45,407 nt of DNA, from positions 1 to 45,407 of the IMG/VR virus record IMGVR_UViG_3300021197_001525; one strand, 5' to 3'. Position 1 is the stretch's first letter, and each line of letters begins with the position of its first letter. Position numbers and translations under genes: made by a program. A model generated the notes under the pieces. That model saw only the letters and a list, made by a program, of their open reading frames with translations. It made no database searches and was not told the DNA's origin. The DNA comes from a virus. Below are positions 4,064 through 35,779 of the stretch, one piece after another.

Positions 4064-4269
4064 GTATCGAGATCGTTCTGAGGAACAAAGCACACTTCCC
4101 TAGAGAGAAAGTGCCTATGCTGATGAGGGACATCGCTCAATTGATGGCTAACTATGGGTTGGAAATGCAATTGACGGAGATTCACAGAGCGGCATCCGAT
4201 TGCGGCTCCGTGTATATGGGAACTCACTTCGGTGAGCAGATTAATGTCAAGAAAGAGGAGGAGGAATAG
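4060..4269 (+). CDS. Hypothetical protein, 69 aa
   Basis: It has an alpha/beta pattern (MSIEIVLRNKAHFPREKVPM, helix, LEMQLTEIH strand, VYMGTHFGEQINVKK). No family recognised. It ends KKEEEEE, encoded by the GAGGAGGAGGAA SD of the following gene. Confidence 0.6.
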   Translation: MSIEIVLRNKAHFPREKVPMLMRDIAQLMANYGLEMQLTEIHRAASDCGSVYMGTHFGEQINVKKEEEE

Positions 4270-4560
4270 ATGTCAGCAACGAGGAACGGCAGGGGGCAGA
4301 GGGTCGGCCCCGGCATCAGGGCCAAGTTATTCACTAGCAGACCGGGGCGTCCGAGAAAGAGTGCTAAGAAGGTCTGGATTGGCGCACAGTTTCTATTCGG
4401 GCATCCTCCTTTCTCAATGTCAATGAAGCCGGGGAATGGGGCTGTCACTACCAAGTGGGTGATAGAGAAGGTCAAGAACGATCCTGAACCCATTGTCATT
4501 GATGATCATGCCAAGGGGGCTTATGATGCTCTGATGGCTATGATGAGGGATAACCAATGA
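4270..4560 (+). CDS. Hypothetical basic protein, 96 aa
   Basis: The N-terminal 40 residues are very basic and Gly-rich (RNGRGQRVGPGIRAKLF, RPGRPRKSAKKVW). The RPGRPRK core resembles an AT-hook-like Arg-Gly-Arg-Pro element. The second half is a compact alpha/beta segment. DNA binding is plausible. It ends in an ATGA overlap with the next gene. Confidence 0.55.
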   Translation: MSATRNGRGQRVGPGIRAKLFTSRPGRPRKSAKKVWIGAQFLFGHPPFSMSMKPGNGAVTTKWVIEKVKNDPEPIVIDDHAKGAYDALMAMMRDNQ

Positions 4561-5063
4561 GAGTCGATGAGGATAATCTCCCCGTCGCACCTAAACCGCA
4601 GTTTGCTTATGCTATGGGTCGGTGGGTACTACCCTCAATCACGATAATCAGCGACGAACCTGTTGGCGTGTCTGATGTTGGTCAGACCATTGATGGGGAG
4701 CCATGGCAGATTCAGTCACCGATAATCATACTCCAGAGCAATAGGCTATCACAGAACCTAGTGCCACCTGACTACCGAGGGGTAATGGACAGAGTAGTCC
4801 CACGGATATATGAAATTCCAACAGACGGCTTCGGAGTCATTGAAGTGGACACAGGGCGCATTGGATGGATACCACATGAAATAGTGCAGAGTGATAGAAT
4901 CGAATTGGTCGAGAAGGAATCTACCCTTCTCCATTACGTCGATGCCATGCTTGAGAGAAGAGGGTGGTTCCCAATACAAGTAGATCTGGAAGAACTCTTT
5001 GAAATCCGCATCGAACCTCCTTCACCAGAAGAATTCGATGATTCAATGTCCGACTGGATATGA
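4557..5063 (+). CDS. Hypothetical acidic protein, 168 aa
   Basis: Strand-rich first half (WVLPSITIISDEPVGVSDVG, IQSPIIILQSNRLSQ) and an acidic C-terminus (EELFEIRIEPPSPEEFDDS). No signal peptide, membrane helix or catalytic motif seen; family not recognised. It starts in an ATGA overlap with the basic protein before it, so the two opposite-charge products could be made together. Confidence 0.6.
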   Translation: MRVDEDNLPVAPKPQFAYAMGRWVLPSITIISDEPVGVSDVGQTIDGEPWQIQSPIIILQSNRLSQNLVPPDYRGVMDRVVPRIYEIPTDGFGVIEVDTGRIGWIPHEIVQSDRIELVEKESTLLHYVDAMLERRGWFPIQVDLEELFEIRIEPPSPEEFDDSMSDWI

Positions 5064-7200: not shown

Positions 7201-8580
7201 ATGCTCCTCTATCGACTCAGAAGCAGAGCAGAGATGGTTGCTAACAACATCAGAGCCTCATCTAGCGATCCATGGTCTGTTGTCTCGTTCTTCTATCCCA
7301 AAGGGGGTGTGGGGGGGAGGTTGAGTGACGAGGACTTCCGCGAGATATACTATCTTCTGACGGACGCCTATCCAGAAGAGGTCGAGGTTAATCCTGATCC
7401 GATAGCCCTCTTGACATCCCTCTCCGAAACCGAAGTGACCGAGGGCCATGCCAAGGCCATAGTGGATAGAATGCACAAGATTCTGGAGGCTGATGACAAT
7501 GAGGTCAGGGCATGGCTCATCCGACCCCTGTTCGATCGCATCAACAAGCGTGACTTACACCCATTCTTCATGCGTCTAAGCATCAGGGCAGCACCAGTAA
7601 GGCGGAGGGATGTAGTCAAGGCTCTGGGAATGGCATACGACCAACCATTCCATCATGTCAGGACATCGGTGAATTTGCTTGGGTTGAAGAACACGGTACG
7701 AGACTTGTCCTTGGGTTCATTCGATTACACCAAGGTAAGGCCCGTCCCATTCATGCCTATGTTGATACCAACGCCCAATCTAGTTGATTCGACTGATGCT
7801 GTGGCATTCACCAAATGCTATGCAGAGCCTATCGAGGGAGTGTGGGCGACGGTGCATCACTCCAAGAACAGAACCATCGGGTTCAGCGCGTCTGGTGAAG
7901 AGTTGCCAGATGATGATGGGTGGATGTCAGGGTGGGCTGCGTCTTTGAATCTACCAGAGGGAATATACCTCGCTGACTATGCAGAACACAGGGAAAATCC
8001 TCTCCTCCTCATTGATTGGTTGAACCCCGATGACACCAAAGCGACGTTCACAAAGCGAAGAAGACGCTTCGATGGTGTTCCAGAGTGGGGGTTGAAGAGT
8101 ATGTTGATGCTTGAAGCACCCTATCATGCTCATTACGAGAATATCCCATTCATACTTCGGAACGCAAGGGGCATCCTGACTTATGAGAATACCTTGGAAG
8201 AGGTTGCACTCCTGAATCCAACAACGACGGACAGGATCATGAGAGTCATATCTGGGCGAATAACAGAGTCACCGACTGGTGGCCCTCCAGTCATGCTGTG
8301 GAGATTAGGAGTTAGGGATGGTTTCGATTACTATCCAGTCTGCGAATTGGAATCGAGATTAGACTTCAAGAGATACTGTGGAGATTACAAGGTCATTCCG
8401 GGTGAAGCGATAAAGATTGAGACTCCCTTGTTCGTCACAGTCAGAATCCTAGCGTCGGGGTGGGGTGACATGGGAGCCTATGTCGCTGGTTCGATTACGG
8501 GAGTAGAACCAAGTGCGGGCATCTCAGAGTGCATGGGTGTGGAGGAGATTGGGTTTGTCGAAGATACTGAATCAGAATGA
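7201..8580 (+). CDS. Divergent DNA-ligase-like protein, probably without catalytic lysine, 459 aa
   Basis: The layout resembles an ATP-dependent DNA ligase. A helical N-terminal half contains FFMRLSIRAAPVRRRDVVKA at 122-141, like the ligase DNA-binding domain. RPVPFMPML at 180-188 is like the segment leading into the adenylation domain. The nucleotidyltransferase-like part is at about 200-350 and an OB-like C-terminus at about 365-455. Where motif I (KxDGxR) should be, I read EPIEGVW (209-215), so Lys is replaced by Pro and Arg by Trp. ARGILTYEN (322-330) would be a degraded motif IV. If this is right, it binds DNA or partners but cannot ligate. The match is by eye and an unrelated protein is possible. 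ATG 7201 has GGAGGG very close; CTG codons at 7162/7165 sit 6 to 9 bases after GGAGGAG and could extend it. Confidence 0.4.
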   Translation: MLLYRLRSRAEMVANNIRASSSDPWSVVSFFYPKGGVGGRLSDEDFREIYYLLTDAYPEEVEVNPDPIALLTSLSETEVTEGHAKAIVDRMHKILEADDNEVRAWLIRPLFDRINKRDLHPFFMRLSIRAAPVRRRDVVKALGMAYDQPFHHVRTSVNLLGLKNTVRDLSLGSFDYTKVRPVPFMPMLIPTPNLVDSTDAVAFTKCYAEPIEGVWATVHHSKNRTIGFSASGEELPDDDGWMSGWAASLNLPEGIYLADYAEHRENPLLLIDWLNPDDTKATFTKRRRRFDGVPEWGLKSMLMLEAPYHAHYENIPFILRNARGILTYENTLEEVALLNPTTTDRIMRVISGRITESPTGGPPVMLWRLGVRDGFDYYPVCELESRLDFKRYCGDYKVIPGEAIKIETPLFVTVRILASGWGDMGAYVAGSITGVEPSAGISECMGVEEIGFVEDTESE

Positions 8581-11766: not shown

Positions 11767-12744
11767 TTGTCACCTTTTAGTCCACCAAAGAGGTATCCCG
11801 TACCGGGACGACCCGGCTTGTTCTCGTCATACCAATGGCATCCGGGCATGAAGGATGACGTGATACTGAGGGTATCGAAGTCATCATTGGGTGATTTCGG
11901 TTTCTGCCAGCAACAGTCATTCATCAAGCGAATCCTCGGCATTAAGTCTGAGGAGAACGATGCGATGATCCGTGGGTCGAATGTCCACGATTCTGTCGAG
12001 AGATTCTATCAGGACGTGAGTGTTTCCTATGCCGCTTCAATGAGGTCATATGGTGTTGAGAACGTCTTGAAGTATTTCATGGAGTTCGTCGGTGAGGGCG
12101 ATCCCAAACGCGGCCCCTATGAATTGGACGAGCAGATTCACTTGGAGAAATATATGAGGCTAGAAGCAGAGCGATTCATGAATTGCGAGGATGCCCAATT
12201 CTTCCTCCCTCTTGGTAATGAGATAAGCCTAGATGCAGTAGTGACCATAGACGGCCAGTTAGTTCACCTGACTGGCATTGTGGACAGGCTTTTTGCTGAT
12301 GCCGAAGGAATACCTCATGTCCATGAGTTGAAGACTGGTATGTGGAAAGACCACAAGCCGTCCAAATGGACTAACATGAGGGAGGAGATGGCATACTATG
12401 TCTATCTGTTAGAGGAGAGCGACCATGAGGTCGTAGGGGGACTCCGTTGTGAGCGGTGGGGGTGGGATCATACCGGGGGCTATGCGTCTAAGGAGGGCGA
12501 GGAACCCGAAGCGGTATGGCGTGGTGTCGAAGAAGTCCGGCAGAAGGACATCGACTCCATGAAAGACAAGTTGAAATTGTTAGTCAAGACATATAATCAA
12601 TACAAAGGCGATTTAGATGGTAGGGCATTTGCATTGATTGATTTCTGGAGAGCGCAAGAGGTCATTTGTGAACCTTGGTGCGACCTCAAGGGATATTGTC
12701 CTCGCTATGAGAAGATTCTTTGGCCCTACCCGTCAGAGGACTAG
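11767..12744 (+). CDS. Cas4/RecB-family PD-(D/E)XK nuclease with Fe-S cluster, 325 aa
   Basis: Key residues fall in the Cas4/AddB order. C47 sits in SLGDFGFCQQQSF, H74 in IRGSNVH, and D173 in TGIVDRLF. E187 and K189 sit in VHELKTG, with a helix carrying EEMAYYVYLLEE (the QxxxY-like region). C301, C305 and C311 are in CEPWCDLKGYC. One N-terminal plus three C-terminal Cys is the 4Fe-4S arrangement of Cas4-type nucleases. It would resect DNA ends for recombination with the upstream Sak4-like ATPase. No CRISPR array is in view, so an adaptation role is unlikely. TTG 11767 has AGGGGG (11753-11758) 8 bases upstream; ATG 11848 would be a shorter choice that still keeps C47. Confidence 0.8.
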   Translation: MSPFSPPKRYPVPGRPGLFSSYQWHPGMKDDVILRVSKSSLGDFGFCQQQSFIKRILGIKSEENDAMIRGSNVHDSVERFYQDVSVSYAASMRSYGVENVLKYFMEFVGEGDPKRGPYELDEQIHLEKYMRLEAERFMNCEDAQFFLPLGNEISLDAVVTIDGQLVHLTGIVDRLFADAEGIPHVHELKTGMWKDHKPSKWTNMREEMAYYVYLLEESDHEVVGGLRCERWGWDHTGGYASKEGEEPEAVWRGVEEVRQKDIDSMKDKLKLLVKTYNQYKGDLDGRAFALIDFWRAQEVICEPWCDLKGYCPRYEKILWPYPSED

Positions 12745-12746
12745 GT

Positions 12747-13841
12747 ATGTCTCACTTGTTCGCAGACTTCCCACGCGAAGTGAACATGAGGACTCGTAAA
12801 GTAGTCCATAACATGGTGGAGTTGCAGAGATACATAGATGGTATGAATGGCCGTGACAACCTAACCACAACGGTCTATGGATTCAGATCGCTCAAGACCA
12901 AGGGGAATCGTTGCGAGTATTCCACAGCCATTGTTCCTCACTTCGTCGTTGACTTAGACAAGGGAAGGGCGGAGGAGGTGCTACCAGAGGCGACGGAGGA
13001 CGAGTGGGGGGTGAGATGCGCCATGGATACCCTGAGACTCTCCAAGCACCTTAGAGATGAGGGGATACGCCATGCTGTATGGTACTCTGGCGGGGGTTTT
13101 CACGTCTGGGTCATGCTATCCAAAGTGCATATCTTGGAACACGACGAGTTGGCTAACCTCCTGTTCTCAGGTCGTGTGATAATCAATAAGTGGGTCAAGG
13201 AGATGGACTTGGTGACGATAGACCCTGTGGTTTCATTTCGTCCCGACCGACATATCCGAATTCCCAATTCATTCAATTTCAAGCGGAAGAAGTGGTCTAT
13301 CCCTGTTTCCATCAGCGACCTAGAGGATGGGTGGCAAAGAATCACACAGAAGGCAGAGAACCAGTCAGGGGGTATGAAGGTCTGTGGGGATCGAGGGATG
13401 GAGATAGAGATTGTCAGCCATGACCCAAACATGACAGGACTGTCAGGATTGTTTCAGAAATTCGACGCTGCGGAAATCGGGGTATCAGCGAAGAACCTCA
13501 ATGGAATTCCTATCTTACCGTGCCTCCATGCTGCTTGTTGCACCAAGGGCAGCAACCCCCCTCACAAGCCTCGATCATACTTGATGATGTTCCTGATGGA
13601 CTACAAACGAGACTTCGCACGTCCTCCGACAGATAGCAAGGTTTCCAACGGAGAAGTCATCCAATGGACGCACGAGGTCATAGCAGGATTAGAGTGGTCG
13701 GATTACAGTCCGAAGATAACTCAGCAGATGCTCGTTCACGGTGCATCTAGGAATTACCTAACGCCATCCTGTGCGAGGATATATAGCGAAGGACTTTGCC
13801 TTGGCAAATGCCCCATGTTCGATGGCAAGGGAGTTGATTAA
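12747..13841 (+). CDS. Archaeo-eukaryotic primase with PriL-like Fe-S domain (PriS-PriL-like fusion), 364 aa
   Basis: The N-terminal two thirds carry the AEP catalytic set: FVVDLDKG with D69 and D71, YSGGGFH ending at H119, then TIDPVVSF and HIRIPNSFNFKRK (169-181), which fits the third motif. Residues 256-357 resemble the PriL C-terminal Fe-S domain: LPCLHAACC (C259), a helical FLMDYKRDF stretch, ITQQMLVHGASRNYLTPSC (C342), EGLC (C351) and KCPMF (C355). Archaea normally split these parts between two subunits; here they appear fused in a short protein. It would make primers for viral replication. ATG 12747 follows the nuclease stop by two bases. The catalytic half is firmer than the Fe-S half. 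Confidence 0.75.
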   Translation: MSHLFADFPREVNMRTRKVVHNMVELQRYIDGMNGRDNLTTTVYGFRSLKTKGNRCEYSTAIVPHFVVDLDKGRAEEVLPEATEDEWGVRCAMDTLRLSKHLRDEGIRHAVWYSGGGFHVWVMLSKVHILEHDELANLLFSGRVIINKWVKEMDLVTIDPVVSFRPDRHIRIPNSFNFKRKKWSIPVSISDLEDGWQRITQKAENQSGGMKVCGDRGMEIEIVSHDPNMTGLSGLFQKFDAAEIGVSAKNLNGIPILPCLHAACCTKGSNPPHKPRSYLMMFLMDYKRDFARPPTDSKVSNGEVIQWTHEVIAGLEWSDYSPKITQQMLVHGASRNYLTPSCARIYSEGLCLGKCPMFDGKGVD

Positions 13842-14242: not shown

Positions 14243-14496
14243 AGAAGCAGATTACCGCTCTGTTCGACGCCAATGAAGATGGAGAAGTGGACATCAGAGA
14301 TCTTCACATTCTTATCAGGCACGAGTGGATGTTCATAGCGGGAGGTTTCATTCTTCTTGGTAGTGTAGGGAACGTCTTTGGTTGGTGGGACATCGACTCC
14401 GATGCCTTCTGGGCTGCTGCTGGTGCTGCGGCCATGCTGGAATACATCCATGATACGGTTCACCTCAAGAGATCAGGGAGGAAGGACAATGACTGA
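14239..14496 (+). CDS. EF-hand-like membrane protein, 85 aa
   Basis: Near the N-terminus DANEDGEVDIRD matches an EF-hand or dockerin-type calcium loop (D1, N3, D5, G6, V8, D12). Two hydrophobic segments follow (WMFIAGGFILLGSVGNVFGW and FWAAAGAAAMLEYI) with a basic C-terminus. TTG 14239 gives a TTGA overlap with the previous stop and has AGGAG about 10 bases upstream; TTG 14233 is too close to it. A calcium-responsive membrane protein or a holin-like role is conceivable, but no family is recognised. Confidence 0.5.
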   Translation: MKKQITALFDANEDGEVDIRDLHILIRHEWMFIAGGFILLGSVGNVFGWWDIDSDAFWAAAGAAAMLEYIHDTVHLKRSGRKDND

Positions 14497-15196
14497 GAAG
14501 GTTCTCTATATCGACAACAGAGAACGCTCTGGCCTTGAGGATCTTGTCAAAAAATACTGTGATAAGACTGGCCTCATGTATGTAGTGAACCAGAACCTCA
14601 TAACAGACTATGCCTTTGCGAGCGTGGGGATAGAGGCAAAGAGCGTTGCAGATTACATGGGGAGTCTGTTCTCAGGACACCTTGAGAGGCAATTACAGAA
14701 TCTCGATGACAATTACAATCAGATGATACTCCTCATCTGGGGGAGTTTAGACCAGTATGTCACCCAAGCGAGGAAGGGTGGACGTAAGACGAGTTTCCCA
14801 AAGGCTTTCGGCATATTCCATGGTTCGATAGCACGATTCCACAACGACTACGATGTGAGCATCATGATAATGCCTGACCGTTCGTCTGCTGCTCGATTCA
14901 TATGCAAGCGATTTGAGAAGCATGGCACTCTAGGCGCACCCACTACCTATCGTTTGCTTCGCAAGACGGCTTCAGAGGATAGGCGGATAGATCTCCTTCG
15001 GGCCGCAGGTTGCAGCGAGGCAATAGCCAAGCGGTTGCTGGCAAGGTTCGGCTCAATCTCTGAAATCACCTCATGTTCTCCGAAGGAGTTACAAGAAGCA
15101 GAGGGTGTGGGCAAAATCCGCGCTAACCGAATCCTGCTCTGTCTCAACAGCGAGGAGCCGGTTGCCGATGAGAAAGTGAAAATGAAGAGGGCTTGA
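14489..15196 (+). CDS. XPF/ERCC4-family nuclease with (HhH)2 domain, 235 aa
   Basis: The ERCC4 nuclease fold is visible: YIDNRERS (D9), D40 in TDY, then IEAKSVADYMGSLFSG with E49, K51 and D55, and H-L-x-x-Q, matching the ERKxxxD signature except that Arg is Ala. Residues 168-216 form a helix-hairpin-helix pair (AAGCSEAIAKRLLARFGSIS and EAEGVGKIRANRI). It lacks a helicase domain, as in short crenarchaeal-type XPF. Members cut branched or flap DNA 3' of junctions and often work with PCNA. In this block it may resolve recombination or replication forks. ATG 14489 overlaps the previous gene by 8 bases, with GGGAGGAAGG upstream. Confidence 0.8.
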   Translation: MTEKVLYIDNRERSGLEDLVKKYCDKTGLMYVVNQNLITDYAFASVGIEAKSVADYMGSLFSGHLERQLQNLDDNYNQMILLIWGSLDQYVTQARKGGRKTSFPKAFGIFHGSIARFHNDYDVSIMIMPDRSSAARFICKRFEKHGTLGAPTTYRLLRKTASEDRRIDLLRAAGCSEAIAKRLLARFGSISEITSCSPKELQEAEGVGKIRANRILLCLNSEEPVADEKVKMKRA

Positions 15197-15197
15197 C

Positions 15198-16646
15198 ATG
15201 ATGAACGAAGGCACGGCTAGTGGTGTAAGAGAGTGGAAGGATTACAGTCTCGTCAATTCACCTTATGAGGGCAGCAATAACCTCCGTCAGTATGTCGAGA
15301 GGTTCGACACTCTGTCCTTCTTCAACCAGTATGCTGGCATCCTCTCTTACTTCTTTGTTCTCGGTCAGTTATGCGCTCCCTATGTCCGCATTCCCATTCA
15401 TGGTGCTTACATCGACAGCCGCCTTCACGTCTTCTGGATACAGGCATCTCGTTCTGGCAAGTCAATAGCGTATGAATTCACGGCCAAGATACTGAAACTG
15501 TGCGGCATAGAAGCAGAGAAATTCAGCGCGGGTTCCGATTCAAAGTTGATTGGTTCGGTGATAGAGGTTCCCAAGGTCGATGAGGATGGGAAGAAGGTAT
15601 CAGGAGTTGACTTTGAGATTATCCCCGGTCTGCTCAATGGATACAAGACCCTTCTCTTCGATGAGGGCAGCATACTACTAGACGATTCCAAGGCATACTT
15701 CAGCCAGAAGATACTATTCCTCCAACAAGCCATGGCTCCCATCGGTAGCGAGACTAACGTCCTTGTCAATCACTTGAAAGGAGCGTCGATATACACTCCA
15801 TCAGGTATCTCTCTGTGGGCTACTACTTTCCCACCCAAGGACATTATGCACCATGTCCTAGAGAAGGGATTCTTCCAGAGAGTATTCCTATATCAGAATG
15901 ACATCAATCTTGAGACTAGGCAGACTACAAGCGAACATCGAATGTCTGGTGTGTATGTCCCTGTACCCGATCAAGTATGGTCTTACGAGGGAATAGCCGA
16001 ATGGATAGTGGGAATCAGGGACGAGATAAGAGACAGGTTGTTCACCGTAGCGGGCATAGATCAAGAACAATGGGACAGCATGGCTGAAGAAGAGAGAGAG
16101 AAGATTGCTGTTGACCATAGCCACATGATATTCACGATAGGCCCAAACTATCATGCTGCCCTTCTTAGTGCTGTTGATGATTACTATGCTCTAGTCAAGA
16201 CAGTATCGGACGACAACGTGAGAGAAACCGCCATCTCTTTCATCCCCAATGTCGAGAATTACACGATAATATTCGGAAATATGATTGCTGCCACCATGCA
16301 CTCGGCAGTAGTGACCGCCGAGCATATTGCCATGGCTTCTGAAATAATCTATGACAATCTCCACAACCTGATTATCTGGTTGGAACAGAAGCGAGACTTC
16401 AAGGCGTCCAAGCAACGACAAGCCGATCTCAGAGCATGGAAACAAGCATTCAACGCCTGTAAGAAACAAGTGCATGACAGGACGAAGAAGGAAGTAGTTC
16501 GTAAGACGGAGTTAGAAGGGAGATATGCTGCTTTCAATGCTGTTAGCGAGAAGACCGCTCAAAGAAGACTAGACAAGTTGGTCGATAACAGACTGGTAGT
16601 CAAAGTGAAAGAAGGGCGCAACGTATTCGTTGCCTTTGAGGTGTGA
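15198..16646 (+). CDS. P-loop ATPase, candidate replicative helicase, 482 aa
   Basis: Residues 80-90 (WIQASRSGKSI) hold a Walker A variant in which the first Gly is replaced (QASRSGKS), and KTLLFDEGSIL (150-160) is a Walker B with acidic DE. Long helical stretches follow. The last 80 residues (TKKEVVRKTELEGRYAAFNA, then TAQRRLDKLVDNRLVVKV) look like a winged helix. The order of a P-loop core then a DNA-binding wing, next to a primase and nucleases, suggests a helicase of the DUF3987 or D5/MCM-like type. I cannot decide between these. A packaging role is unlikely given the neighbours. Confidence 0.55.
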   Translation: MMNEGTASGVREWKDYSLVNSPYEGSNNLRQYVERFDTLSFFNQYAGILSYFFVLGQLCAPYVRIPIHGAYIDSRLHVFWIQASRSGKSIAYEFTAKILKLCGIEAEKFSAGSDSKLIGSVIEVPKVDEDGKKVSGVDFEIIPGLLNGYKTLLFDEGSILLDDSKAYFSQKILFLQQAMAPIGSETNVLVNHLKGASIYTPSGISLWATTFPPKDIMHHVLEKGFFQRVFLYQNDINLETRQTTSEHRMSGVYVPVPDQVWSYEGIAEWIVGIRDEIRDRLFTVAGIDQEQWDSMAEEEREKIAVDHSHMIFTIGPNYHAALLSAVDDYYALVKTVSDDNVRETAISFIPNVENYTIIFGNMIAATMHSAVVTAEHIAMASEIIYDNLHNLIIWLEQKRDFKASKQRQADLRAWKQAFNACKKQVHDRTKKEVVRKTELEGRYAAFNAVSEKTAQRRLDKLVDNRLVVKVKEGRNVFVAFEV

Positions 16647-17341
16647 TGATGTCATTAGCAGAGTGGATGAAAGCAGAGGGCTACGTCGCTTATCGCTTGT
16701 TCTCTTCAACTGATGCAAGCGAAGTCCCGAAGGGATGGAGTGAGCCAAAGAAGTTTTCTCTCGATGGCGCGGCCTTCTTCGACGGAGAGACAATGACTAT
16801 CTTCACCGATCTGACAGGGAGGTTGCTAATCAAGAAGAAGAAGACAAAGACACTCCCGCTTAAGGAGATGCAATCATGGCTCGATGAGAGGTTCAAGAGA
16901 GGGGGTTGCCTAGTAGGTTATGGAAACAGGAAGTTTGACCTCCCACTACTGTTGCACAGGCACAGAGTCAAATCATCGCACGTCGATCTAAGTGAGATAG
17001 TAGCAGAGGCATCGAAGAAACACTATGGGGACTATGCTAGGCGTCATGATTTACGTCACCTATCCACACTCAACAGGAAGAAGCAGACCGCCCTTCCTCA
17101 TCTCTCATTCATGCTCAAGCCCATCGCCCTTATCTCAGAGTGGCAGAGAGGGATGGTGCGGAACGTGTTGAGAGTCCTAGCGGCAGAGGTTGAGTTGATA
17201 GCCGGGTTGTTCAATCACATCATGGTGAATGAGGAGTTGAGGATAGAGGATGAGAGGACGCAACGTCCAGTCACCGTGAACTGTACCTTCGTGAGAGACA
17301 GCACGTTCCCTTTCAATGAGAAGGAGTTGGAGGAAGAGTAA
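16646..17341 (+). CDS. DnaQ/PolB-like 3'-5' exonuclease, 231 aa
   Basis: DEDD-type motifs are visible. ExoI is AFFDGETM with D46 and E48, ExoII is LVGYGNRKFDLPLL with N94 and D98, and an ExoIII-like helix is RNVLRVLAAEVELI with Glu where Asp is usual. The protein ends without a polymerase domain. It probably trims 3' ends or proofreads for a separate polymerase. ATG 16646 overlaps the ATPase stop by one base, with GAGG 5 bases earlier. The altered third motif leaves some doubt about activity. Confidence 0.6.
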   Translation: MMSLAEWMKAEGYVAYRLFSSTDASEVPKGWSEPKKFSLDGAAFFDGETMTIFTDLTGRLLIKKKKTKTLPLKEMQSWLDERFKRGGCLVGYGNRKFDLPLLLHRHRVKSSHVDLSEIVAEASKKHYGDYARRHDLRHLSTLNRKKQTALPHLSFMLKPIALISEWQRGMVRNVLRVLAAEVELIAGLFNHIMVNEELRIEDERTQRPVTVNCTFVRDSTFPFNEKELEEE

Positions 17342-26700: not shown

Positions 26701-28547
26701 CGTGTTGAGCCGCTTGGAACGGCTCCGGCGGTGGTGTGGGGGGTCAGACCCTGTTTGGTCGCCATATCGGGATGCAGGAGCCTCTGAACGTGGAAGATTA
26801 GCATCCTGTCGTGGGTGTCGAACTGCGACGCACCACCAGATGCCTCTGCTACGCCCGGTTTGCGAGGGTCTGGGGCCGTCAGCCCCCCCAACCCCCATGT
26901 CATGTTAGACCACGCCTGAACACGGTCGTGGCCGCTCCTAACGAACACCTCTCCGGGTATCTCTGAGGGGTCTGGCAGTTGAATCTGCATATTCGGGGTC
27001 AATTTGCCGTCTGTGGTGGATGGCCCCGTGACCTCTTCCCCTGTTATCGGGTCTGTTCTGGTGTTCTGGACGGAATAGTCCCGAATTATCACTCCTAATG
27101 GAGAACCACCAGTAAGAGTCAGTTTGTTGCCCGCGTCGTCAACGGTTTCTATATCCTCAAAGACTCGTTCCTCATTGCTAATCTGCAATCCCGTCACTCG
27201 TGAGGTATTGGTGGACTTGGCTGAGAATATGGGACGGGGTACGTTCTTAGAGCCATCACCATCAATTCCCTTGGCCTCAAACGCTGTCCCATATGTGATA
27301 TTCGTCAGATTATCCTGAGAAGCCGAGAGCATATTGTTGGAATTGCTCGTGGCGGTCGCCCTATATCCGCTCTTTAGGTGGAACATATCTCCTGAAGAGG
27401 CAGGGAAGTCCGTCCCATATTCCATATTTGCTAGTTTGATATTGTTAGATCCCGTAGTATCGGTTTCGACTTTCGTAATATGGTATAGGGATGGCTCGGT
27501 GACTGTGTAGTCGGGTGGGGGTATGTCGGGGAGGTTGCACGAGTTCAGTCCCTCTATGCTGAATCTGACATACCCGTGTCCCGTACTGTGGGCCGAGGCG
27601 GTTGAGCCTCTGGAATCGTAATTGAGGGCCGGTAGCCCCATGTTGCCTCCGTCCATGGGCTTCGCGGCTAGATACCAAGTAGGCACGGCCTGACCTAGAC
27701 CGTGGATTATGGGGCCTCCGTTCGCTGTTGCCCAATAGCCTCCAGCAGCGTTCGGTGTGATGTTTTCCCAAGTCAGAACCATTGTGTGCTTTGCGGGTTC
27801 TCCGGGTATTGATACTGTTGCTGACGTTATTACTTCAGGGCCAGAAGTCGAGACTTGAGTTATCTGTGATGAGAGGTTTCCACCTGATACTGTAAAATCG
27901 ACATATGTCCTTTGATCCTTGGGGCTACCGTTGTAGTATTCTCCCCCTCTCCTGAAAGCAGACACTCCCGTGTAGGTTATCGAGAGATTGGTGTGATCGC
28001 CATCGTTGTAGGTGAGTGTGCCGCTTTGTGGCATATCTGAGGGGAAACCGTTGCGATAACCACCATTCAGTTTGACACGGAGAACGGTGTTAGACTTGGC
28101 TAGTGTAGCATCTCCCGTTATGGAGGGCTTACCTGACATCCTGACGTATCTCGCTCTCAGGTAACGAGTCTGGCTGTGTTCTCCCTGCTGCTTGACCCTG
28201 CGGCTGTTTATCTTGGCTGCTATGAGTCTAGTGGCCTCCTCCGTCCCTAGATTGTAGGTCTTGCTGTTCGTATCATCAGTAGCGGCTTGCTTCAGATCCA
28301 CTACGATTACGTTTGTGTCCTCCGCAGGGGCGGAGGCGGTGGCGATGGGGGTGCGGACGATGACCGTGAGTCCCTGCTTCCATTGGTCGTTGGTGTTCGT
28401 GCCGTACTCCCAATCGGTCACGGCATCATCGTACTCCGTATCGGGGTAGGTGATGTGCATTGCGAAGAAGCCGCTTGCGGGGTATCCACTAGCAGATGCC
28501 ATGGGGACGACCTTGGCAGGATAGAGTTGCTTCTGGTTCACCGTCAT
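20736..28547 (-). CDS. Giant tail-tip/baseplate hub-like protein, 2603 aa
   Basis: This very long protein has three broad parts. Residues 1 to about 1430 are Ser/Thr/Asn-rich beta structure. Residues about 1440-1790 form a low-complexity region with repeated G-x-GYT units (NAGSGYTFPSG, NQGDGYTSVPA, SGGSGYTSVPA, AGGSGYTTAPT). The last 700 residues look like a phage hub: LNVMEIIRNLTQIDGKQLIN, VFVVVKDLERM, RQEIPGLKTNNEALKLAKSI, MIQPGEIVNINLPNHGLRGE and FEATHDYTNLKSDFIIAQ. That last block resembles late-control-D/gp27-type hub proteins. ATG 28547 is preferred over 28583 because GGGGGTG precedes it and it overlaps the previous stop (TGATG). It probably forms the tail tip that first meets the host. 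Confidence 0.65.
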   Translation of the reverse strand: MTVNQKQLYPAKVVPMASASGYPASGFFAMHITYPDTEYDDAVTDWEYGTNTNDQWKQGLTVIVRTPIATASAPAEDTNVIVVDLKQAATDDTNSKTYNLGTEEATRLIAAKINSRRVKQQGEHSQTRYLRARYVRMSGKPSITGDATLAKSNTVLRVKLNGGYRNGFPSDMPQSGTLTYNDGDHTNLSITYTGVSAFRRGGEYYNGSPKDQRTYVDFTVSGGNLSSQITQVSTSGPEVITSATVSIPGEPAKHTMVLTWENITPNAAGGYWATANGGPIIHGLGQAVPTWYLAAKPMDGGNMGLPALNYDSRGSTASAHSTGHGYVRFSIEGLNSCNLPDIPPPDYTVTEPSLYHITKVETDTTGSNNIKLANMEYGTDFPASSGDMFHLKSGYRATATSNSNNMLSASQDNLTNITYGTAFEAKGIDGDGSKNVPRPIFSAKSTNTSRVTGLQISNEERVFEDIETVDDAGNKLTLTGGSPLGVIIRDYSVQNTRTDPITGEEVTGPSTTDGKLTPNMQIQLPDPSEIPGEVFVRSGHDRVQAWSNMTWGLGGLTAPDPRKPGVAEASGGASQFDTHDRMLIFHVQRLLHPDMATKQGLTPHTTAGAVPSGSTRLFAAHRITDHAERGSLLTQTDQTSVAGTFTTYTGYSYPHHRVRFARQGHSFVTPMTHRGTPAAMRRQLHRSHGSAYTLLFEAESEHRHHGFGSAKDSNSTTIFELDSLDTKNTSNYKANGSFASDGLPLTEVSGFRLPDIKQSAHSGVTPRTDYDYLVAPGQEHTNTKGAGHLIRRAAPSQDATSTTTSGPTRLTFASALSGGSRYNTSSEIILNGFLLGDYTLSAGRPIAPVIDAGSSEYFSLGLEEGVLVPRSGTELATVPPLLCHDPEYLNMAARTANPANDNAGINTDFGDFALLDKSNTGTGCVPDAFLCHWLAEYSHPALFGTSREHYMTFRYREAGMPRSLNYPPTRSLYLRNHSNPTTTAQAEDALPFERLYVIQWLQNFGYNALNASGHKDVTGLRSANAVLMGHTTHREAQGTLRLTKEYDRVRYTRGEGIGDGIQPEKTSATISYDTDSDTISFTEYEVVVDNMVAYDYSRRLPVRAWGFRTGSDALNMLSGDPTESVTNLQPLFNSARFDGGVHDSMNKIPNATTHGSSWVFPSDYNGAERTVPIGVVTTSHTAESTPFSSVIRRSNTKPLASEQPIGIGLTLGIESAGLVKPTSLPAGVWQPKTDPNKGTNEPLKAIPMNKGSDPFIDLTQYTGSNTYAQSTSPSAVSSTQYGVSGGFHHLRGNALHTNPSAIDHSNTSNVHYPTTGWGIGTHTNATINSILAIPLSEISDHRQVQSRTEPRLGFVIQTENERQDNQNIEYLITSTKAASLHSDLIVGQHFPVLPSWVSNSKLTTHNMTVNAGSPTSQTINDPYALPKWSPDTKDDKGDGGAAVTALSISNAGSGYTFPSGTLGFSGGGGGTGFSGTYTTTASVLTGTNGVTYSGGAAAYSGGNTQTFSITIAGNATGTMTLSDDGKPISTTISVGGTNNNYSTSGNPNTVAVTIGAPNASHNSTQAAATAYYAKNATIITPGGGALRTGQTNHTFNWAAATTTPSGHTAPSTILSGTGATTDSGGYVTSWGTVTSGVGYTSGHTFVIDAVAPSAPLEFGAGANAANIYVGLANTGSVAYAIVTNQGDGYTSVPAASISSGNATATASLDTHTATRSLTAITVTSGGSGYTSVPAVTLPTGNLTGSAPTSVTAVLASTGPIAAVSISAGGSGYTTAPTITMSGSGSSGVVLATVTLPNNPPVLTTPDSHGMDYWAVRGCGDLPPWGGTYILRKTYLNRTEEGTLTTDIYGTDGNATTSNQRRKSIDYFVRPVRPLKLFGFASTLQQDGWLMGARSSYGDADLEYQAFTRDNRYGVFEADMEKTLGSLDLISTAEGVFEMTWPDANEHDTVFHLLPSASMLQFFKSDAVRKTVDGQFNPEIEARYSQTTHPGGGESLNQSETRYNAVGTGISGDFVKQTTPDAVTHTHMDSSMRIYPQFKVTKHAGSNNNVFLEDASMLPSAGTLFIVGKGKVVYTGKTKNKLTGITNSTGVSDLTGQILRYTTLTSPSALSDIRPLTIPHLVSPTYIDNTITLAKQASAIWNRFDVTNSAVKQTTLGYRGLLEYDPTDFMMINQRPIVIDNGKTSALISTSSPSITAIRFDGKEISDSYFPPYLFDSQNTPLRIAGVEKDELSTFLLFRNIDADSLTDFGMTQGPVLMGQTGYIGVRTSDAALMLLNDSGSDLAGFNVTPTSALLGKDREVSSTLDAHPSLRLVSDHSAIFTARKTRGLNVMEIIRNLTQIDGKQLINEKDGSMIYSSNTFINRGMTFGVGSAINSVSASKMYDSPNEIVIVGDELARNEKVFVVVKDLERMKNEASKGASSNLVRTLRQEIPGLKTNNEALKLAKSILARAENGAPLIHIKGAIKASMIQPGEIVNINLPNHGLRGEYMVFEATHDYTNLKSDFIIAQYDKGIEGILSDLQAVSGNSAPLDELAGKVVEVAEVSLSSNINVVAVHKVFVRSVNNTGFIIGAKHTNGMGKIGVRDGNKRARAIGSSKGLYVEVK

Positions 28548-31500
28548 CACCACACCCCCCTTGCCGCGTATATCTCCTCGCACTCACTCTCAGAAAGGGC
28601 ATAGTTGAAGACGCCTACCTCCGATAGCGAACCGTTCCAGAAATACACGTTCTCCGTCCCGGCAAGCCCGCCACCTGCGTATGACTCATGACTATCCAAT
28701 GTGCCACAAACCCCTGCGTGGTTGCCCTGTGTCGAACCTGTGACATCGGTGTAGTGTATCGTGAAGAGGGCATCTGGATCGCCAGAGGAATGGACAGTCT
28801 CAAGATTCTTGATGGTCGAAACGCCGATGAAGCACATTCCTGTTTTCACAACCCCTCCTTGAAATTGAGGGAGGGTAGCCGTGTTGTTGTGATTGGCCGT
28901 GGTTGTCTCTAGGCTTCTAGCATTGCCTGAGCCGAACGTACCCAAACCCAAATTAATCATGCTAGTAGTATCTTGATTAGCACTAAGGCTGTAATTGTAT
29001 CCTCTAAGACGCTCCGAGTTTCCCGCTCTCATTGAGATGGTAGTCCCACTCTTGGTCACTATGACGTTAGTCCATGCGTTATCGGTTATTTTGATTCCCC
29101 CATCGGCCACCTTGTTCCTTGCTATCTTGTGATTCGATCCATCGTGGTATGCCATGGCGAATGAGATGGTCTGATCGGAATTGGAAATCCTACTGCCGAA
29201 TAGATAAAGCCCCCAATTCCTGTCGTTCTTATCCCTGCCCGTAATTATAGGGCCAGAGCAGATTTCATTGTTATTGGCGAATGAAGTGTCGCTCGGTTTG
29301 AACCACGCGCTGATTGACCAGTCCTGTGTTATGTCGAAATCAGACATCGGCCCATACTCAAGGTTAGTCGCGGAACCAGTCCAATGGTGAGTCGCAATGC
29401 TTTGGCCTCCTCTGAATTTGTACCCCTTCGATGTAGTATCGACGGAATAAGCAGGGCCATTCAGGGAAGTCATCGTTGCGACAACGGTATTCCCTCTAGC
29501 AAATGTCATCTCAACGCCATCATTGACCGCTGATGCTCCAGCGACACCAGTAAGAGTTGCATCTGCCCCTCCTGTTGCTGATGTACCAGTAAATGTGAAT
29601 GCATCGTCATTGTGAACCACAATCATTGCACCACTTAGGTTGCTACCACTACCAATTGTTATGTCAGAAATATCAGTTGAGCCGGTCATTGTAACATCCA
29701 TGCTCGTTCCAGAAGAGTAATTGCCATCGGGAGTCAATATTCCATACCCCCTAGTCAATCGGAGTTTTGAACCATACAATGCCTCGGTTATGACTGGACT
29801 CTGGTTGTAAGTCCCATCTGTGATAGTGCCATCATTGAGCCTAGCATAGAGAAGGCATCTCTGGAGATTTACCCCGTCCGTTCCAAGCCTATGGTGAACT
29901 CCTTGCATGGTGTTGTCATTGATTGTGTCGTTGTTCGTGATATTAGTGAAGTCCAAGACCGCAGATGCCGTGCTGACCTCATGCAGGTTCTGATGTCCTG
30001 CGAAACCAGTAGGGCCTTTGGAGTAATGGTGAGGATAGTCGTCGCTGTAATCGTTAGCCGTCCCATCGCTTATGTCAAATGTGACTCCTGTGTGACCTCC
30101 TCCGAAATACACGATTCCCTCTGCATCAGTCCTTGGATAAATCAACTCAACCTCTATACCACCGATGGACGCTCCATCACTATCAAAGAATGCCTCTAAG
30201 AAATCAATCATAGTATCACGAGGAGTGATGTTACGAATGAAAAAGCAATTTGTCATGACGCTTCCGTTATTACCTGCCACTACTTTCTGCTGATCAATAA
30301 ATTCAAAGTCGGCAATGAGAGTGCCGACACGCAAGATGCCTTTGCCCAATGAGCCGGTTGCTCTAGTCAATCTTTTGAGGTAGTCTTCGACACTCGTACT
30401 AATAGCGAGATGAGAGACACTCGTCTGACTAACGAGTTCCGTAGGCCGTGGGTCAGTCATAGGTATAGATCTCATTAGATTTTCATTGTTATTAACAGCA
30501 ACAGAATTGTTGGCTGTAAGTGTTATGAGTGTCGCTGTCACCGCGCTGATAGTTCCTATTGATGCACCTGTATCGTCAAATAACGTATCTCCTGCTCTAA
30601 ACTTAGTCGTTGCATCGACAGTATCAACAGTTAATGTTGTCTGTGCATTGCCACTTATGTTCGACTCATTGAATAGAACACCACTTGACTCTACTGTCGA
30701 TGCCACCCCTTCAAGAGTCTCTTGAGCAGGAGCGGCAACAGTAGTTACTTTGAATGAACTACCTAATCCATTGTATGAACGAAGGGCATTAGTAGAGTCC
30801 AAGGTCGAACCAGAGGGTGCGCCTCTGAATATCGAAATAGGCACAAAAGTCTCACCATCTGCACCTATTGGCATAGGTGATGGTATCAGGTTTGGTTGGT
30901 ACAACCTGCTATTGCTCGATAGAAGCCCCCCATAACCTACTACTTGAGATGGCTTGTAGGTGTATGGTGTTTTATTGCTAAGTCGCACATTGAAGTTTCG
31001 ACCAGATGCCCCCGGAACCGTGCTGTGTATCACGATGGAAATACCCGCTTCTCCATCTCTGCTTTCAACCTCTGTGCCAATGAATGCTCGGACGTATCCC
31101 ATGTGTGTGCCTGTGTCGTTGTTGGATGCGGACGTGGGGAAGATGGCGGGTGGGTTGAATGCACTCGCTCCTGCGCTGTTCTTTGCTTGGGGATGACCTG
31201 CCATGTTGATTCTCCTAACGACCTCCTCAACGCAGAGATTGAAATCTGGCTTGACATTAGCGACGTTGTTGAAATCAATCTCAAGCGGACGCACATATTC
31301 CAATGCGGTTCCATCTGATTTCTTGCCTTTCAATGACAGGTAACTCGTTTGACAGATAACAGGGTGCAGGGATTGCCTGTCATTTGCCGATTCGTTGTCC
31401 TCGTTCGGATCCCACTCAAAGGCTTCCATGTTAGGGCCGTCTAGGATGAAGTAGCGAGATGAGTTATTGGGGTCTGCATGGACGGCATTTGCATTCAGCC

Positions 31501-34150
31501 CAATTACCGTCCTCACCGCCGTGCCAATCTCATCGGCCAGAAGGTTAGGGGTACGCGCTGTGAAGTTTGATATGTCTTCGATGGAGATGATGTAGTCTTG
31601 GGTGTCGTTAGAAACAGAAGTAGCACCATCTAGGATTATGTAGCCTCCGAGGGTGACAGTCATACCTGCATCTATGTTGCCGAGATTGCTGCTTTCGTTG
31701 TTTGTTGTATTCAGAGGATTCCATGTCTGGGACGTTGTTATAGTGAGGGATGTGCCGTTGTTATACGCGGCTCTTGCCATGATTCCATAACCGTCGTTCA
31801 AGACCCCCTCTCCAATGGTCACGAAGAAATTGGCTGCACAGTTTGCTTGAAGCCCTCTTTCTCCTGTCGAGTCCAAAAAGGCAGAGGCATCGTCCACATT
31901 GAGTGTGCCACTATTGTACGAGGTCACTACTGCTTGGACAGATGGGCGTTGACATCTAATTAACCATCGCCCGTTTCCTTCTGCCCATGCCTCTAGTTGA
32001 TCTGTCACCTCAAAAGAAGAAATAGGACTTCTCTGTCCCCAATCAACAGCGAACCTAGATTCGTTATCCCTCATCTCTGGTCTGTTTGTAGCCATGGTAC
32101 AATCCACAGTCATCTTGAAATTCTTGTCTGCGGGCAAAGGGGTTCTCGCATCGTTATCAGCAGAGATGAGTGATGCCACATCGAAAAACATAGAAGGGAA
32201 CAATGGTAATTCAGTCACGGCCCTTGTGGATGCATAGTATGTGGATGTCTGCTTGTCATTACGAACCGATGCATTTCCCGAACCTACTATCTTGTCTTTC
32301 CAACCGGGTAGGAATGGATGCTCAGTATATACTGGCTGTATGTCCACGCCACCTTGTCCCAGACCTCCAAGAGTCATTGAAACGGTGGGCGTCCCCAAAT
32401 CCCCTATCTCCTTCACGGGAGAGCCTTGCCCTAGATTGAAATCCCTCTGTGAACGATGGTCTAGTATGTCCATCAAAACCGAACGACCATTAATGACTGT
32501 CTTTGACTCTCCTTCTTGACCTGCGGTTGGTGTAATCTCCTCTATCCTTCCCCTCATCAAGGTCTTCTCCAAGGTTGCTAATGAGGTGTCCAGAGGAGAG
32601 TTTGATGCTGTTGAAACATCTTCAAGCATGGAGTTTCGTGTCCTATTGGCAGGATGAACGAGAACCAGATTCTCATTGCCAGTCAATTCATTGTCAATAA
32701 CGTCAAACCCTGCTAGATTACTTCTCCTCAATGTAGAGGGTGTCAGTTTAGAGGAAGTGTGATCTTTGTGATTATTCAAACTAGCCGAATTGATGTAGAA
32801 AACATGATAATCAGAGTTGCTCGTATCATCAGGGGTGTTTATTGATGCAACTGCCTTGGGACGACCATATCCTTGGACTTCTGTCCCAACCCCATAGACC
32901 GTATCCTCGATGTTGATGAATGGAGAGGGAGTTATGTCGCCTGTGGGGTTGGAAGACAAGATATGGGAAGCCGGCTTGTCATTGAAGGTAGATGTGGGTA
33001 GGCTAACGAGTCCACCGGGAGCCGTGACAGTCAAGAGGATGTTAGTGAGGCTTGTATTGTTGCCTGAATAGGGCCGTCTAAGCCAATCTGAGACTGTTCG
33101 ACCACCAAAGACGGCACTACCACAGGGGATGGTCTTACGCACGACCAGATAGGCCGCATTGCCCGTTGCATGATCGGCCCGGAACTTTGCACTAACATCT
33201 CCACTCGCTAGACTTGTTCCACCAACCACCTCTCCTGTCAAATCAATGGCATCATAGTGAATGAGTATCTGCTTTGGCCCTCCTGCTGAGACTAATACGG
33301 TAGGTGACTCTATTGAAGCGACTCTGGTCTTCTTTTCTGGCGTAAGGTGTCTTACATATGCATCATTTGTTGGTACGCCATTGGAGAAAGAAGCAGTATG
33401 CTCAGTATCAAGGCCCTTCAACATGAATGGTTTTGGATCTGAAATCGCAATAGCGACAATTTCATCTCTTGTTGAGGCATAGAGATTTTGACTGAGGCTG
33501 TTGTCATAATAACCAATTCCACTTTCCACAACTATCCGATTGAATGTATTGTTACTGCTACTTGCCGAATCAGTACCAGCGACGGTCTTGGCTTTGTTGA
33601 TTACCTTGGAGATTTCCCCATGATACACAGTTTCAGTAACTCTGACTCTCTGGTTCTCACTAACCAATGATTGTGTAGAAACCTCATCAGAGACATACTT
33701 GAAGGTGTTTGCTATCCCTTGAACGGTTTGTTTTACCACTTGTTGATCGGGCGGTGGAAGCATCCGAAGAAAGAAGTCCCCTTCAAACATAGAATATGCG
33801 GTAGCAGCACCCATGGCTGGATATGTGGTGCTTGGCTCATACAACGTGTTTGCGTCTGTCGAGGCTGTGCTTCTGCTTTTCAAAGAAACAAAGTAAGCAT
33901 CATTGGAATAGCCAGACATATCGGTAAATCGCTGTCCTTGAACGAATTGAGCCAGAGTAAATGTATCCTTTCTTCTCTTTCTCTGGTTGCTGACCGAGCC
34001 ACTTGTTTCATTATTGCCCGGATCAATGAGTAAGTCAGCAGACCCTAGTGTGAACCATACTGGAGTGTTGTTTGTATGGGCAAAAAGATGCCCCTGTGTT
34101 TCGGGAAAGTTGTCTATCGTCCCGTTTGCAGCATCGTTCGCTAAAATCAC
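28547..34150 (-). pseudogene. 3' part of an interrupted giant LamG tail protein
   Basis: This frame (1867 codons from a chance GTG at 34150) continues the protein begun at 35778. The first residues (MILANDAANGTIDNFPETQG) repeat the end of the upstream fragment because of the 389-bp duplication. It is beta-rich and Asn/Thr/Gly-rich. The last 260 residues (GYKFRGGQSIATHHW, DWSISAWFKPSDTSF, AWTNVIVTKSGTTISM, GSLSEVGVFNYALSESECEE) form a LamG/concanavalin-like jelly roll, typical of carbohydrate- or surface-binding tail proteins. There is no SD at 34150. If one repeat copy is removed, both fragments join into about 2280 codons with no stop, so the gene is probably intact in life or very recently broken. 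Confidence 0.7.
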
Positions 34151-34602
34151 AGAGGTGCAGTTTATCCTATTGTTAGCAAAGTCAAGTCCTGTTATACGGA
34201 CTCTCTCTACCCTGTGGTGCTTGGCTCATACAACGTGTTTGCGTCTGTCGAGGCTGTGCTTCTGCTTTTCAAAGAAACAAAGTAAGCATCATTGGAATAG
34301 CCAGACATATCGGTAAATCGCTGTCCTTGAACGAATTGAGCCAGAGTAAATGTATCCTTTCTTCTCTTTCTCTGGTTGCTGACCGAGCCACTTGTTTCAT
34401 TATTGCCCGGATCAATGAGTAAGTCAGCAGACCCTAGTGTGAACCATACTGGAGTGTTGTTTGTATGGGCAAAAAGATGCCCCTGTGTTTCGGGAAAGTT
34501 GTCTATCGTCCCGTTTGCAGCATCGTTCGCTAAAATCACAGAGGTGCAGTTTATCCTATTGTTAGCAAAGTCAAGTCCTGTTATACGGACTCTCTCTACC
34601 CT
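33825..34602. repeat. Exact 389-bp tandem duplication
   Basis: Bases 33825-34213 are repeated without a visible mismatch at 34214-34602; identity runs from 33824 to 34215 against 34213 to 34604, so the copies share a 3-base TGT at the junction. 389 is not a multiple of 3, so the duplication shifts the reading frame and brings a TAG at 34207-34209. Perfect identity means it is very recent or an assembly artefact. Confidence 0.9.
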
Positions 34603-35778
34603 GTTTATGGATGGGTTTAGAGTAGAAGTAGATGATGTGGCTAGGACTGAGTTATCTCCAAATCTAACTTTCTGAGAATCTGGAGGGGTTATGACTCCTG
34701 TATTTGGATTCGTACATGAATGATTGATTACTGCGTTCAGAACGGTCTGATTGACTCCTGTAAAGTACGTTTGGTCAGTCAAGTCTAATGTGGATGAATA
34801 CCAAGACTGATCTTTTACTTCCTCTAGTTCTATCCCCTGTGTCAAGGCTGCCAGTTTCTCAAGAGCGGTGTACCTATCAGTTGCACCCCCCGGATTCGCA
34901 GGGTAATCTCTAATCTTGAAATGTGTTGTATTGAAATCATAGCCAATACCAACCATGGGTATGTCTAGCAGACCATCGTGAGTGTCTGGGCCATCTCTGC
35001 CTTGTTGGGGGGAACCAGAACGAGCATGGTCGAAGAAATAGATTTCTGGTACATCCTGTTCGTCGTCAAAAGTCCAGAGTCCGAAGGTGTTGTCTGTCTT
35101 GGTGAGGGGTGATAGGGAGGGGGGGTGGATGCCCTGACAGATCCTCACGCTCTCTATCAGGCCACGGAACTCCCCGCCCTGTCCACCGATGAATAGGTCT
35201 GAGGATGTCTCTTTCATGATGCCGCCGTCGCCACCCAGATTCATCTCAGCGACTATATCTCCATTGACGAAGACCCGTATCTCCTTCTGGGTGTATTGCG
35301 CCGTCACTAGGACTAGGCCCTGTGCGCCTAGAGTCATGTCCTGTGGCCTGTGTGCATTGGATGATGAGGAATACACCCCAGAGTTGCTATTCGTCTTGAC
35401 AGGTGCGTTGAATGAGGTCGAGGTGACATAGGGTCTGTCTTCAGTATGAACCTCAAAGACAATTTTACCCTCTGAATGTGGTTTTCCATATTTCAGAGTG
35501 AATGCATCGGGCTTGTGGACTATGACTCCTCCATAGTCTGGGACAAAAAACGCATCAATGGTGAATGAGCCTCGTAATGAGTTGAGAGGGTGAGATTTTG
35601 AGTCTCTATGCATCCTTCCTATCTTGGTCGCGTGGCTCTTGGTAGCCTTGATGGTGGCCGCAAACTCATTTGCCCTTAAATCGACACCAGATTCTCGATA
35701 TTTGCCCGTGGGAACTACTAGCCCATCTGTGAACCCATTGAAACGAAGGGCCTTGCCATGGAATCTTACAACACCCAT
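34207..35778 (-). pseudogene. 5' part of an interrupted giant LamG tail protein
   Basis: Starts MGVVRFHGKALRFNGFTDGL and reads 523 residues. Residues 1-250 are a LamG-like jelly roll (GSFTIDAFFVPDYGGVIVHK, GLVLVTAQYTQKEIRVFVNG, FIGGQGGEFRGLIESVRICQ, FGLWTFDDEQD). The frame runs into the duplicated segment and stops at 34207 after YEPSTTG, where the healed protein would go on YPAMGAATAYS. ATG 35778 is two bases after the upstream stop with GGTGGGAA nearby; 35841 would be inside the previous gene. With LamG domains at both ends, the whole protein is a likely tail-tip adhesin or baseplate part. Confidence 0.7.
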
Positions 35779-35779
35779 G

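Follow-up and report, generated by a model that had tools for sequence, protein, structure and literature searches.

Can a single viral chain of 364 residues combine the catalytic core of the small primase subunit, PriS, with an initiation domain of the large subunit, PriL? The question is raised by one open reading frame in a 45.4 kb virus record, analysed here over its whole length and called the window, which an earlier note had read as a self-contained fusion of PriS catalytic motifs with a PriL-like Fe-S domain:

12747..13841, + strand: fused PriS / PriL-CTD primase, 364 aa plus stop

With a probability of about 86%, this frame encodes a PriS catalytic core fused to a PriL C-terminal domain (PriL-CTD), lacking the PriL N-terminal domain (PriL-NTD) and working as the one-chain primase of a tailed archaeal-type virus. 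The one-chain reading is supported because it draws together invariant residues of the archaeo-eukaryotic primase (AEP) superfamily, an AEP fold, PriS and PriL profile matches, the cysteine spacing, an invariant arginine (R276), annotated halovirus homologues and neighbours of replication/repair type.

The frame starts with the ATG at 12747, two bases past the stop of an upstream nuclease gene (12744), and its own stop ends at 13841. Against 86%-identical relatives, dN is ~0.10 and dS ~1.7-2.0, the latter near saturation, and substitutions concentrate at third codon positions; the primase reading frame is therefore under strong purifying selection. The coordinates and residues listed in the earlier note (D69/D71, SGGGFH, HIRIPNSFNFKRK, C259, C342, C351 and C355) are all present, and their conservation goes beyond chance: D69, D71, H119 and the four cysteines are invariant in 47/47 sequences of an alignment of viral homologues at 22-86% identity, the source of all conservation counts given here. 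D159 (motif III), R171 (motif IV) and R276 are further conserved residues that the earlier note had not named. Judged from the sequence, the strongest case is for a PriS-type AEP core followed by a C-terminal domain of PriL type with four cysteines.

The N-terminal half carries the catalytic features:

12747..13361, + strand: AEP (PriS-like) catalytic domain, residues about 1-205 (NCBIfam PriS 6e-4; AlphaFold/Foldseek)
12951..12959, + strand: motif I, D69-x-D71, metal-binding carboxylates (47/47)
13086..13103, + strand: motif II, SGGGFH with H119 (H119 47/47)
13221..13223, + strand: motif III, D159 (47/47), aligned to the motif III aspartate of Sulfolobus solfataricus PriS
13248..13277, + strand: motif IV region RHIRIPNSFN with R168 and R171, from alignment to 1zt2_A
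13428..13481, + strand: low-confidence linker, residues 228-245, pLDDT < 50 in the AlphaFold model

The three AEP superfamily motifs (hhDhD in motif I, sxH in motif II, hD in motif III) are thus represented by D69/D71, H119 and D159 in every homologue. R168 is kept in 47/47 sequences and R171 in 46/47. H119 and R171 retain two positions of the archaeal PriS H-R-H signature, but the third is Asn177 (42/47, otherwise Thr), so the full signature is absent from the window primase. The PriS Zn-binding motif is likewise missing, as residues 1-246 of the 47-sequence alignment contain no invariant cysteine. An AlphaFold model of the full primase, built from a 47-row alignment (pLDDT 83), was compared by Foldseek with known structures and matched PriS (5of3_A, 1.3e-4; 1zt2_C, 3e-4), CAPP Prim-Pol (5e-5) and LigD-Pol (1e-4), all at probability 1.00. 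At the level of the model, these matches confirm an AEP catalytic fold for the N-terminal domain.

The C-terminal domain is defined by four cysteines and an arginine:

13485..13838, + strand: predicted PriL-CTD-like Fe-S domain, residues 247-364 (NCBIfam PriL, PRK02249; Pfam DNA_primase_lrg; model pLDDT 87)
13521..13523, + strand: C259, predicted cluster ligand 1 (47/47)
13563..13574, + strand: H273-x-x-R276, candidate initiation-site arginine (H273 and R276 47/47)
13770..13772, + strand: C342, predicted cluster ligand 2 (47/47)
13797..13799, + strand: C351, predicted cluster ligand 3 (47/47)
13809..13811, + strand: C355, predicted cluster ligand 4 (47/47)

No other cysteine is invariant among the 47 viral homologues, and most share the spacing 83, 9, 4. 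The first two intervals agree with those of cellular PriL, and the third is much shorter than in yeast or Gerd_ePriL. Cys1-Cys2 is 81 in yeast PriL (C336-C417) (PMC2852410) and 82 in the Asgard PriL Gerd_ePriL (C252, C334, C343), where Cys2-Cys3 is 9, exactly as in the window primase (PMC12770985). The Cys3-Cys4 gap, in contrast, is 40-45 residues in yeast and Gerd_ePriL, 4 in the window primase and 9 in haloviruses. Sauguet et al. describe archaeal PriL as largely without the small C-terminal subdomain, its final two ligands being placed on a variable linker (PMC2852410); the close fourth cysteine and a chain that ends about 9 residues after C355 fit this archaeal layout. R276 lies mostly 17 residues beyond the first cysteine across the viral homologues, and yeast R355 lies 19 past C336 (PMC2852410). 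Arginines R355, R306 and PriX R72 are required for initiation (PMC5700102). Its spacing and invariance suggest that R276 occupies about the position expected for the eukaryotic PriL initiation arginine and is probably its equivalent.

Profile searches point the same way. Across the family, NCBIfam PriS models match N-termini and PriL models match C-termini, and the matches examined in detail lie below curated cut-offs. PRK02249 (PriL) matches 9/47 members (best 1e-6) at its cysteine-bearing model positions, about 226-331, and Pfam DNA_primase_lrg matches 4/47 (best 1.2e-5) and, weakly, residues 266-357 of the window primase (0.26). None of the profile matches of the window primase itself passes a curated cut-off. 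Weak but consistent affinities thus link the N-terminus to PriS and the C-terminus to the Fe-S-bearing end of PriL. The C-terminal domain modelled alone (pLDDT 87) has no significant fold match in the PDB; PriX (4wyh), which resembles PriL-CTD (PMC5700102), gives the best TM-scores (0.43/0.49) but E = 2.7. Influenza and thioesterase folds also appeared in this search and were discarded as noise (E > 1). In a viral structure library, full-length matches of the primase model include further viral primases, among them an entry titled 'Archaeal/eukaryotic-type DNA primase large subunit'. The proposed fusion of a PriS core with a PriL-like Fe-S domain is supported by the profiles and the cysteine spacing, with the qualification that PriL is represented by its CTD only. 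The PriL N-terminal domain is absent from the AlphaFold model, in which just a short, partly disordered linker joins the two domains.

The C-terminus might instead be a helical domain of PriCT-1/PriCT-2 type, or a structural zinc domain, that came to look like PriL-CTD, as in many mobile-element AEPs. A PriCT domain is what such AEPs usually carry at the C-terminus, PriCT has been reported as homologous to the PriL Fe-S domain, with PriCT-2 retaining two of the four cysteines (PMC5862659), and the best-shaped match in the non-significant fold search is the cluster-free PriX. Yet four cysteines with PriL spacing are invariant (47/47), an invariant arginine lies near the initiation-site position, and NCBIfam and Pfam return PriL and never PriCT. 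The profile searches did not assign the C-terminus to PriCT or to an unrelated zinc domain, either of which the earlier note had named as refuting its reading, and such an origin seems improbable.

The PriS-PriL fusion is not new in kind. It is annotated in haloviruses and known in PolpTN2, Nanoarchaeum equitans and other DPANN archaea. The closest precedent comes from the cultured haloviruses HVTV-2 and HCTV-16, whose homologue is annotated as 'DNA primase' with 'small subunit (N-terminal region) and large subunit (C-terminal region)'; because this annotation names both subunits, the fusion was already known in a relative. Among annotated phages, only Haloarcula viruses match the window primase (tblastn, 20.9% identity, E 9e-4, 96% coverage). 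The profile of phrog_9660 scores 8e-8 for the window primase (residues 5-194) and 2e-137 for a halovirus-type member, and on these sequence matches the window primase and the HVTV-2 and HCTV-16 homologues are placed in this one protein family. The Druskaviridae primases (HVTV-1 and HVTV-2 gp100; HCTV-16 gp99) are 382-383 aa long, about 21-28% identical to the window primase and alignable over 96% of it, with the domains in the same order and both the catalytic residues and the four invariant cysteines retained. They differ in a longer linker region, a shorter CTD (Cys1-Cys2 66 versus 83 in the window) and a Cys3-Cys4 gap of 9 rather than 4, and their genes lie beside those for PCNA, RFC and PolB.

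Other single-chain primases are more distant comparisons. PriS and PriL form one chain in all DPANN cluster 2 archaea (PMC7414124), and N. equitans carries a PriS-PriL fusion (PMC3973330); these enzymes, likened here by description, share the single chain with the window primase but are cellular. The N. equitans enzyme shows sequence-specific priming, to judge by the title of Schneider et al. 2023 (cited in PMC12770985). PolpTN2, from the Thermococcus plasmid pTN2, is likewise a single chain that joins a PriS-like to a PriL-like part and has four cysteines predicted as Fe-S ligands; its primase activity has been demonstrated, and the purified protein is light brown (PMC3973330). PolpTN2 is, however, a 923-aa protein with PriCT-1, a PriL-like NTD and CTD, and a winged helix (PMC3973330, PMC5862659). 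The 364-aa, two-domain window primase lacks this layout of about 900 aa (AEP, PriCT-1, PriL-like and winged-helix domains), which is that of PolpTN2-like proteins and PrimPol-PV1. Heterodimeric archaeal PriSL and PriSLX have the catalytic motifs in common with the window primase and use PriL-CTD or PriX as initiation module (PMC5700102), but their subunits are separate and include a PriL-NTD and a PriS zinc motif that the window primase is missing.

Very compact fused primases are thereby documented as a widespread family in marine viruses, with about 80 IMG/VR loci. One primase relative emerged from a first IMG/VR scan. Profile scans then returned 16 matches and, in a second list, 82, which represent 77 distinct loci. 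Most of the group is 47-86% identical to the window primase, the haloviruses about 21%. Single-sequence searches of the PDB and Pfam with the window primase returned nothing usable. A plasmid search found no relatives, and two scans covering 84,980 species genomes yielded no cellular relative and hence no candidate for a cellular donor of the primase.

How might such a short chain prime? Archaeal and eukaryotic primases have two NTP sites, one for elongation (PriS) and one for initiation (PriL-CTD or PriX), that are transiently joined (PMC5700102). In the window primase, D69, D71 and D159 would hold two metals, while H119 and R171 would hold the incoming nucleotide. The C-terminal domain (about 247-364) would form a small bundle of helices that a [4Fe-4S] cluster, bound by C259, C342, C351 and C355, closes off, and R276 (together with H273) would clasp the first nucleotide by its triphosphate. 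As the PriL-NTD is absent, positioning would have to fall to the linker, whose flexibility might swing the CTD, with its initiation site, onto the catalytic groove that forms the elongation site, allowing the first dinucleotide to be made. The CTD would then keep hold of the 5' end as the primer, of either RNA or DNA, grows. A DNA polymerase would take the primer over: in related clades the PolB that the virus itself encodes, in the window's clade presumably the host enzyme.

Two published experiments bear on this scheme. PolpTN2 without its PriL-like part retains polymerase and primase activity and is poor at priming double-stranded DNA synthesis (PMC3973330), which, by analogy, fits a two-module mechanism. 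A PriL(1-211)-PriX chimera is active (PMC5700102), and the cluster is therefore not strictly required in every primase. Provided that it is active, a one-chain enzyme of 350-380 aa would lend itself to studying how the PriL-CTD initiation and PriS elongation sites meet, a question difficult to approach in heterodimers.

The gene lies in a replication/repair module. Replication and repair genes occupy the + strand of the window to about 17.3 kb, and tail genes occupy the - strand beyond. The neighbours of the primase gene are:

11767..12744, + strand: upstream PD-(D/E)XK (Cas4/Dna2-like) nuclease (PDDEXK_1 3e-13)
14378..15196, + strand: downstream ERCC4 nuclease with a C-terminal helix-hairpin-helix (XPF/Hef-like; ERCC4 4e-13, HHH_5 1e-7)
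15198..16646, + strand: conserved 482-aa replication-module protein of no family

A homologue of the 482-aa protein occurs in 15/16 records tested and is missing from one halovirus (G018). The tail genes include a tape-measure-like protein and a tail tube protein (Pfam 1e-9) related to that of halovirus HCTV-5 (5e-7). The window belongs to a tailed virus of archaeal type that stands close to Druskaviridae/Magrovirales. Marine archaeal viruses are the presumed ancestors of Druskaviridae (PMC8651126), and an 'archaeal-like primase' and modules transcribed in opposite directions characterise the Magrovirales of Poseidoniales (PMC12999244). The window suits this setting, from which we infer the host, and the fused primase is a replication gene that ties these viruses to the haloviral Druskaviridae.

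Replicative polymerases are unevenly distributed among the relatives. PolB was found in 8/19 related records, comprising both haloviruses and all six of the 47-51% relatives that were tested. PolB was found in none of the 11 records of the window's clade (75-108 kb; G001-G010 and G015), nor were PolD, PolA or protein-primed PolB, in records not proven complete: an exact terminal repeat occurs in 0/4 compared, and one shares sequence between its ends. PF00705 missed the annotated halovirus type of PCNA, and negatives from that search were disregarded. A 232-aa protein encoded at 16643-17341 (+) of the window contains an Exo-II-like stretch, YGNRKFDLPLLLHR, and weakly matches DNA_pol_B_exo2 (E 0.048). 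Homologues occur in 11/11 related records without PolB and in 0/4 tested records with PolB. In one relative, L002, the aspartate of this stretch is lost (KLQYQLLLKAY), and the motif may be degenerate there.

As the clade seems to be without a replicative DNA polymerase and has a stand-alone exonuclease-like protein, a role beyond priming was considered, which we regard as unlikely: the fused primase would be the only virus-encoded nucleic acid polymerase of replication in the clade and might serve as a primase-polymerase, with the exonuclease-like protein assisting. Also improbable is a main function as a primase-polymerase or repair polymerase, in the manner of CAPP, LigD-Pol or PrimPol, in place of viral replicative priming. 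This reading could draw on the CAPP Prim-Pol and LigD-Pol fold matches, the repair-type nucleases next door and the 11 long clade records in which no replicative polymerase was found. It sits poorly with a catalytic core always coupled to a PriL-CTD-like initiation module, with a gene within a few kb of PolB in PolB-bearing relatives, and with a halovirus homologue adjoining PCNA, RFC and PolB genes, the company expected of a primase.

Three observations concern other parts of these genomes. A conserved 459-aa protein encoded at 7201-8580 (+) of the window has no Pfam match; by eye, its stretch KCYAEPIEGVWATVH...GFSASGEELP recalls an ATP-dependent ligase core, in which a clear KxDG lysine is missing. 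Related record L002 encodes a PAPS-reductase-like protein (8e-15) at 4078-5055 (+), between ATPase and nuclease genes, where the window has none. On the - strand of the window, the start of a 1867-aa open reading frame (28547-34150) and the end of a 544-aa one (34207-35841) share the nearly identical stretch ILANDAANGTIDNFPETQGHL, which is either a direct duplication or an assembly artefact.
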